NCBI GenBank assembly: GCA_019695175.1
Contig: JAIBAM010000005.1
Coordinates: forward strand, 1 to 64,000
From: Bdellovibrionales bacterium
GTDB lineage: Bacteria > Bdellovibrionota > Bdellovibrionia > Bdellovibrionales > UBA1609
DNA: 64,000 nt
Direction of reading: 5' to 3'
A program made the position numbers and the translations under genes. Shown in pieces: positions 305 to 4,846 of the stretch (its first letter is position 1; every line of letters begins with the position of its first letter). The notes under the pieces were generated by a model. That model worked only from the letters and a program-made list of their open reading frames with translations. It had not been told where the DNA came from and ran no database searches.

Positions 305-466
305 ATGACTAGCGGACTCATGTTTATACCTATGACTAAATGGTTCATATTTGTAGTTTTATTTTATGCTATCAACCCGATAGTCGCGTCAGCCTCACCA
401 AGGAAACTTGCATTAGTTCCTTGCTCACATTCCATTAACCTTGCTCTCATTCCATTAAAAAGTTAA
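305..466 (+). CDS. Short secretory reading frame, possibly the broken start of a gene
   Basis: This 53-codon frame begins MTSGLMFIPMTKWFIFVVLF and ends its hydrophobic stretch in IVASA-SP, which reads as a signal peptide with an AxA-like cleavage site. Only about 22 residues follow before the stop. The end of the frame runs through a 20-bp tandem duplication (419-458), and 20 bp is not a multiple of three. The frame may therefore be the truncated 5' end of a secreted protein gene. No good ribosome binding site is seen. I do not recognise a family; it could also be chance. Confidence 0.3.
   Translation: MTSGLMFIPMTKWFIFVVLFYAINPIVASASPRKLALVPCSHSINLALIPLKS
419..458. repeat. Imperfect 20-bp tandem repeat, two copies
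   Basis: CCTTGCTCACATTCCATTAA (419-438) is followed directly by CCTTGCTCTCATTCCATTAA (439-458), differing at one base. It lies within the short secretory frame at 305-466. The unit length is the same as in the repeat at 3751-3810, but the sequence differs. Confidence 0.85.
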
Positions 467-1967: not shown

Positions 1968-2990
1968 ATGATTGTATTATATAAAAAATTGAATGGCCTG
2001 TGCGGCATTGTTAATTTTAACACTCCTTGTTTCAGGATTGTCTTTAGTTTAGTAATTATTCTTTTAAGCACCCATTTTCATTCTGTAATCTTCCCACCAG
2101 TTCAAGCAGAGACTAATGGTACTGGTACTGAGATATTTTTTTATTGTCACCCAGCGACCCGCATTACCGACTCCATCAATGATACTTTAAAAAGTAATGC
2201 ACCCTACAGATGGAGAGGTTACGACCTTGACGTCCAGATTGACCCGAACGGAACAATCCAAGTTAAAAGTAAACCTAACCTTATTGGAACACCGGCTTCC
2301 GCAACTACTACCCCAGGTCAAGTTCTAGTTACAAATCCTATTTTTGATCTGGTAAATGGCAAAGCAGAAATCCACTTCTTTTCTCAATATTTGCCAAGCA
2401 CAGGGACCCATATAAATGCGGGTGTTGCTTTGATAAGTATAACTCATTTCGTTACGGAGGAGAGGGGGGCCTTTACTCAAACAAAAAAAATAGATACAAT
2501 TGTTTTAGTAACCCCACAAGGTTTGTTTACATTTTCTGTTGCGGCAGATGATCAAGAACATTTTTCATTTTTTGTAAATAGAACACTCCAAAATGATAAT
2601 GGAATTCAACGAATAACTTACACCTTACTGCGATCAACAATTCAACTAAAACCTGAGGCCCCAGAAGATAAACTCCAGACCAAAATATTCATGATGGGCT
2701 TCGAAGATTGGAGAAACTGGGTCTTACACGAGCCCTTGGCGCAACTCACCCTAGAAGTTGATCAAGGTGGAATTATTAATAGGGTGACACAACACATATT
2801 CACATCCGATCCCGATCATGTAGAGCCCATGACTCATCAAATAGAAGCTCCTGGTGCTAATGGTACTACATTTTTTTTATTTAACCCCCTCGGACCTTCC
2901 TCAGTAGAACGAAGTGATTTTTGGAGACGGTTTCTCAGAGATTCACCATTTATTCGTCGGTGTATACATCTCCTCCTTGGAGGTCCGTAG
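1968..2990 (+). CDS. Secreted protein of unknown family, paralogue of the gene at 3409-4846
   Basis: The 340-aa product starts with a long basic N-region, a hydrophobic stretch at about 24-38 and a likely signal-peptidase site after PVQA (about residue 48), so it is probably exported. The mature part is rich in beta-prone segments and has no recognised domain. Segments such as IDTIVLVTPQGLFTF and LPSTGTHINAGVALISI resemble QITLILATPYGLITF and SPSTRTDHVTSEGIAVLV in the products around 3409-4846, so the two are members of one local family. No clear Shine-Dalgarno precedes the ATG, leaving the start uncertain. Function unknown. Confidence 0.6.
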   Translation: MIVLYKKLNGLCGIVNFNTPCFRIVFSLVIILLSTHFHSVIFPPVQAETNGTGTEIFFYCHPATRITDSINDTLKSNAPYRWRGYDLDVQIDPNGTIQVKSKPNLIGTPASATTTPGQVLVTNPIFDLVNGKAEIHFFSQYLPSTGTHINAGVALISITHFVTEERGAFTQTKKIDTIVLVTPQGLFTFSVAADDQEHFSFFVNRTLQNDNGIQRITYTLLRSTIQLKPEAPEDKLQTKIFMMGFEDWRNWVLHEPLAQLTLEVDQGGIINRVTQHIFTSDPDHVEPMTHQIEAPGANGTTFFLFNPLGPSSVERSDFWRRFLRDSPFIRRCIHLLLGGP

Positions 2991-3408: not shown

Positions 3409-3792
3409 ATGAATAGGAATAGATTTCAACTCACCCAATCCAAACTTCGACATAATAAAACACATAAAACCACAACTAAAATAAATCCAGCTTTTCTTAG
3501 TTTTCTCTTTTGTTGTTTTGCCTCTGGTTACTCCCTCTTTTTAGATCCAACTTATGCTGATGTTACTACGGATACGTTGAGTCAACCTTCACAAGAAGTA
3601 ACTCTTGCTCCTGCAACCCCAAGGACTCAACCTGGATTACCAATAAAAATTTTTTCTAGCAATTCATTGTTAATTCAAGCTTCAATGAGACAAATTGCTG
3701 TCCGACACCCTGAAATACCTGGAATTGCTTTAGCTACACCTGCCTTTCTTGATCCTTCTCATGAACACATAATCCTTCTCATGAACACATAA
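3409..3792 (+). pseudogene. 5' part of a frameshifted secreted-protein gene
   Basis: This 127-codon frame has a long basic N-region, a hydrophobic stretch at about 29-45 and a likely cleavage after TYA (about residue 50). Reading enters a triplicated 20-bp repeat at 3751-3810 and ends in its second copy after ...HEHIILLMNT. With only one copy, the frame would run on through HEHIVTFYHFTSTETN into the frame at 3857-4846, giving one protein of about 465 residues. Two or more copies all stop early. The gene is thus off in this sequence, by slippage during replication or possibly by an assembly artefact. Confidence 0.65.
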
Positions 3793-3810
3793 TCCTTCTC
3801 ATGAACACAT
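3751..3810. repeat. Triplicated 20-bp repeat that breaks a reading frame
   Basis: The unit AATCCTTCTCATGAACACAT is present three times in a row; the first copy has G instead of A at its first base. Removing two copies (40 bp) restores one open frame from 3409 to 4846. A unit of this length that is not a multiple of three could act as an on/off switch by copy-number change. Confidence 0.9.
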
Positions 3811-3856
3811 AGTTACATTTTATCACTTCACCTCAACAGAAACAAATCCCCTTATT

Positions 3857-4846
3857 TTGATAATGATCTTAGATACAATGGCTGCTCATGCTCAAATAAC
3901 ACTCATTCTTGCAACACCATATGGCTTGATTACATTTCCTAGAATAGCTGAATATGTTGGCTGCCAGTCATTCTCAATTACAACAACCACTATTTCAACT
4001 GCTCTAGGTAATCGGGTTACCTATTCCCTATCACCTGCCCAGGCACCTGCCCAAGGCGATCCAGATGTCATTACTCCTCGAGCTAATATGATTGCCGAAG
4101 CTACTTTTAATTTAGATGCTGATGGTTTGGTGACTAGAGCAAATGGTACTTTAATGACCAGTAATACTGGTGTTCCAGCAACTATATTACCTTACTTTCC
4201 TGCAGCGTATCCTCAAACATCAAGATTTACGGATACATTAGCCCGAACCTTGGCGAAACCTGAAATTGGTTCAAGACATAATTCAGATCCTTCTTTACCG
4301 AATATTTCATTAGAAACACGTCCCAACCCAGTAGATATAAACGAAGTTTATTTATTTTTAAAAATTCGTCGGAGTATTTTTCACTTAAGAGGAATCACTT
4401 TCAACTTAGGAACATTCGATTTTCATACAACAATGCCAGAAATCCTAGCGATTAGAAGAATTCCATTATCAATGGAATTTAGCCCAAGCACAAGAACAGA
4501 TCATGTAACTAGCGAAGGCATAGCTGTTTTAGTGTGGCTCAATAACAAACCCTACGTGTTTGTTATTGATAAACATCATAATACGGTTCACTCTTTTGTA
4601 TTACCTATTACTGATCTACTCCAACTTCAGAATCAAGATAATCCAAGAAAAACCATGGCGCTCGCAAGAGCCATTTTTTATGACGCCGATTTAAAATTTA
4701 CTACCTCATATGTAATGGGAATTGCCGACTATGCACTGACATTTTTTCATCCATTTTTCATTCCACTTGGCATCACATCATTAGTACACAGAACTAGTAG
4801 AGTCCCTGCAATCAACCGTCCCAGTTGTGGTGACCTTTTAAACTAA
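3857..4846 (+). pseudogene. 3' part of the frameshifted secreted-protein gene (two family modules)
   Basis: The frame is open from just after the 20-bp repeats to 4846; the ATG at 3857 is merely the first one available, so independent translation is doubtful. The product seems to contain two related modules. The first includes LILATPYGLITF and AEATFNLDADGLVTRANG; the second includes SPSTRTDHVTSEGIAVLV and LARAIFYDADLKFTTSY. Both resemble parts of the 340-aa product at 1968-2990. No catalytic motif or known domain is recognised. If joined to the upstream fragment it would be an exported two-module protein. Function unknown. Confidence 0.6.

Follow-up and report, generated by a model that had tools for sequence, protein, structure and literature searches.

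A tandemly triplicated 20-bp unit as the probable cause of breakage of an exported-protein gene in a Bdellovibrionales genome

In a 64-kb stretch of DNA from a Bdellovibrionales bacterium (referred to here as the window), a once-intact gene encoding an exported protein has probably been disrupted by a 20-bp tandem duplication that later expanded to three copies. Most likely, the mutation arose recently and by accident and could in principle revert; it does not look like a dedicated genetic switch. We propose that the two genes predicted at this site (3409-3792 and 3857-4846) be annotated as one gene disrupted by tandem duplication. The locus clearly illustrates the fresh breakage of a gene by such an event and serves as a warning for annotators, to whom a single broken gene is presented here as two predicted ones.

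The array comprises three copies of ATCCTTCTCATGAACACATA, arranged head to tail on the forward strand at 3752-3811 (copies at 3752-3771, 3772-3791, and 3792-3811). TRF reported a period of 20, 100% matches, and a score of 120, and an exact check likewise found the three copies to be perfect. These results bear out an earlier sequence-only reading of the window, which had noticed a triplicated 20-bp unit within a reading frame; the coordinates given there (3751-3810) were one base off. The register of the array is unique because neither G3751 nor G3812 continues the unit, and no partial copies were detected beside the array, leaving a unit that cannot be shifted. By chance, only ∼1e-18 runs of 40 consecutive self-matches would be expected in 64 kb. 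Another 20-bp unit, duplicated in tandem at window positions 419-458 with 95% identity between its two copies, was observed near the end of a short reading frame (∼305-466) whose N-terminus is hydrophobic.

The sequences on either side of the array have the properties of two halves of one gene. The upstream half (3409..3792, forward strand) begins with an ATG preceded by an AAGG-like ribosome-binding site, and its N-terminus resembles a signal peptide as judged by eye, with a hydrophobic stretch ending in TYADV. It is truncated after 127 amino acids by a TAA at the end of the second copy. Scored against codon usage taken from clear genes of the window, this half reached +0.17 bits/codon in frame, compared with −0.19 to −0.89 in the other frames. 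The downstream half (3812..4846, forward strand) consists of 344 stop-free codons in the frame that a single copy would join to the upstream half. It scored +0.08 bits/codon in that frame and negatively in all others. Such a run of open codons has a chance probability of ∼3e-9 in its own composition, and the other frames of the same region contain 20 to 33 stops. The offset between the two codon-biased frames is exactly the shift introduced by two extra copies. Because both halves appear to be coding in the frames joined by one copy, and because the downstream half lacks stops, we read them as one gene rather than two. Its intact product would be ∼465 amino acids long and, judging from the N-terminus, is predicted to be exported.

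Frame arithmetic agreed with the earlier claim that one copy gives a single frame from 3409 to 4846 and that two or three copies stop early. Reduced to one copy, the region is a single open frame of 465 codons. With 2 to 7 copies, the range tested, the first stop followed codon 127 every time. The incoming frame reads ...ATG AAC ACA TAA at the end of the second copy, or TAG where that copy is the last. Since this stop lies within the second copy, no higher copy number reopens the frame: four copies remain closed, though the length is then again a multiple of 3. The ON state of the gene is thus one copy only. The locus combines the features that define inactivation by an internal tandem duplication: exact copies located within a reading frame, a length that is not a multiple of 3, a premature stop, and, with one copy, an uninterrupted frame whose two sides both carry coding signal. 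The earlier statement that both halves are otherwise open also held, given the coding signal in the appropriate frames and the 344 downstream codons free of stops.

It is highly improbable that the locus represents two genuine genes, or that frameshifting or re-initiation at the repeat, acting as a functional junction, still allows the downstream part to be made. The two frames overlap at 3785-3792 and could be joined by a +1 shift at the TAA, and each copy of the unit carries an ATG. However, the stop (ACA TAA T) does not lie in a known slippery motif. Inspection of the sequence near the upstream stop revealed no ribosome-binding site for the downstream half, and the downstream frame offers no ATG, GTG, or TTG before a point 65 bases beyond the stop (first TTG at 3857, ATG at 3863). 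Two separate genes are further argued against by a neighboring gene, which carries the same region behind an N-terminal part of its own in a single frame.

This neighbor (1968..2990, forward strand; 340 amino acids) also has a signal-peptide-like N-terminus and is a distant paralogue of the broken gene. Its residues ∼155 to 281 aligned to the first part of the downstream half (blastp E value, 3e-6; 2e-5 when composition adjusted), with a shuffle Z score of 7.9 and none of 2,000 shuffles scoring as high. The homology starts ∼3 residues beyond the repeat. In the neighbor, ∼154 residues, including the signal-peptide-like stretch, precede the region that aligns; with a single repeat copy, the broken gene would have slightly more than 120 residues ahead of the corresponding point. 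The upstream half itself showed no significant likeness to the N-terminal part of the neighbor (Z score, 0.6). The layout of the neighbor, a shared region joined in one frame to its own N-terminal part as in the one-copy version, therefore provides independent but moderate support that the two halves once belonged together, and the adjoining paralogue indicates what the broken gene was. The coding scores, the length of the open downstream frame, and this alignment together uphold the initial suggestion of a recent breakage of a secreted-protein gene.

Searches for further relatives returned little. No relatives of the downstream half were detected in 148 related genomes or in 141 genomes of the order, and none of the broken gene were detected in a species-level genome collection (genome_contigs), viral contigs, or plasmids. 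In the family and order genomes, a profile built from the gene pair matched only the two window genes; the neighbor alone gave one very weak match (E value, 0.005; 15 bits). Nothing significant was found in Pfam, NCBIfam, or PHROGs, and the best hit among solved structures had an E value of only 0.28. Structure models, with mean pLDDT values of 46.9 and 43.1, lacked the quality needed for a fold search and suggest no more than a strand-rich stretch within the shared region. A one-copy allele, which the sequence-only reading had proposed to look for in relatives, was not found, nor was an orthologue, in up to 148 family and order genomes and the other collections named above. This outcome reflects a lack of relatives and says nothing either way; because neither allele nor orthologue was found, we infer the ancestral intact gene.

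Exact non-triplet repeats in the 5′ part of an exported-protein gene with an adjoining paralogue would also suit a dedicated phase-variation (contingency) locus, at which the array would be maintained to turn the protein on and off as slippage changes the copy number between one, two, and three. We consider such a locus unlikely. In evolved repeat switches, one in three copy numbers is ON, whereas here a single copy number is ON and 2 to 7 copies are all OFF. Three units are few, and the ON allele keeps no repeat to slip, so that switching it OFF again would take a new duplication event. The unit was not found elsewhere in the 2.6-Mb genome with up to 3 mismatches allowed and so does not form a repeat family across genes, although a repeat common to several genes is usual, if not universal, at contingency loci. 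The locus resembles simple-sequence-repeat contingency loci (PMC4235727) in that a non-triplet coding repeat shifts the frame when its copy number changes, but differs from them in having a 20-bp unit, three copies, and one ON state in all. In pneumococcus, tandem duplications within genes are reported to make expression disappear reversibly (PMC4243769, PMC4022640); a search of the literature on repeats and phase variation in Bdellovibrio found nothing relevant. The slippage switch raised in the sequence-only reading is therefore not favored. It would hold in the weak sense that tandem duplications can collapse, but there is a single ON state, there are three units, and no second allele was found in the genomes searched. 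That the OFF state is selected and reversible, with a long-unit tandem duplication serving as a slow switch in an undescribed paralogous pair, is very unlikely.

The general background of such duplications in the genome likewise argues against a dedicated switch and is consistent with accidental breakage. In a sample of stretches covering 509 kb of the 2.6-Mb genome, we counted 12 exact tandem duplications with a period of at least 12 (∼24 per Mb), whereas about one with a period of at least 10 would be expected at random in the whole sample. All six sampled duplications located in long frames (stop-free, at least 166 codons) had a period that is a multiple of 3, as expected if out-of-frame duplications are normally removed; the duplications whose period is not such a multiple lay outside long frames. 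The 3752-3811 array is the out-of-frame exception, as expected of a loss-of-function mutation. An in-frame counterpart was observed at L025 13569-13626, where a 21-bp unit is present in 2.8 exact copies within an open frame of 729 codons. The genome as a whole appeared unusually prone to duplication when compared with four relatives, but this impression weakened when a wider set was counted. Several relatives had almost no such duplications, and the others, when pooled, had a similar rate that was due in part to one repeat-rich contig; we therefore make no claim that this genome stands out.

These counts bear as well on whether the chromosome, or most of the population, in fact has one or two copies, the remainder being an artefact of assembly or of population mixture. 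The draft genome consists of 56 contigs, many of whose ends carry repeats, and mixtures of copy number could resolve to one consensus. However, ordinary reads can span an array of just 60 bp, the array sits well within the interior of its contig, and exact duplications of a similar kind are present at other sites of the sampled genome, those within genes being in frame. We regard an artefact as quite unlikely.

Under the preferred reading of accidental breakage, the first event would have been a 20-bp tandem duplication inside the intact gene. The ends of the duplication lack microhomology (left flank G, right flank GTTA, unit ATCC...CATA), in keeping with a probable origin by end-joining or illegitimate strand slippage. 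Ordinary slippage between identical neighbors may then have added the third copy. Since 20 bp is not divisible by 3 and the incoming frame hits a stop at the end of the second copy, translation would end at residue 127 and presumably leave the C-terminal 344 codons unread. A recent origin of the lesion is well supported, because no other damage appears to have accumulated. Reversion is plausible: the same slippage may occasionally delete the extra copies and restore the gene. Such a collapse would be expected at some rate; repeats shorter than ∼30 bp are considered to recombine via replication slippage rather than RecA (PMC2884548). If copy number varied in a natural population, such reversible gene loss would be directly visible in metagenome reads.

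The closest known kind of mutation is the frameshifting tandem duplication described in pneumococcal capsule genes (type 3 locus, cap8E, and tts; Waite et al. 2001, 2003, as cited in PMC4243769 and PMC4022640). The 3752-3811 array differs from the pneumococcal examples in having three copies, in affecting an orphan exported-protein gene, and in being known from sequence alone. The pneumococcal duplications were reported to be reversible (PMC4243769); for insertions no longer than 9 bp, reversion is expected at a frequency of ∼1e-5 or lower (PMC4022640). In Xenorhabdus, tandem duplications of 26 to 116 bp in lrp were interpreted by their authors as ordinary mutations and not as phase variation (PMC6786866). 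They belong, like the present array, to an ordinary loss-of-function class of spontaneous in-gene tandem duplications; unlike it, they were selected in culture and affected a known regulator.

Other repeats and elements were observed in the same genome. A full-length match to a group I intron model was detected on the minus strand of L028 (953-1153), below threshold (34.5 bits versus a cut-off of 50; E value, 9e-6). A 122-bp repeat with several small hairpins is present in 10 near-identical copies in the genome (e.g., L028 1-122 and 222-343). Many of these copies sit exactly at contig ends, so the repeat breaks the assembly. The spacing of two copies, 221 bases, is reminiscent of a cassette array, but the integron integrase model gave no match above its cut-off. 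Within the window, positions 128-270 hold a dispersed element of up to ∼140 bp, with some 9 copies at 95% identity or more, which closely follows an apparent transposase tail at the contig start (1-97).
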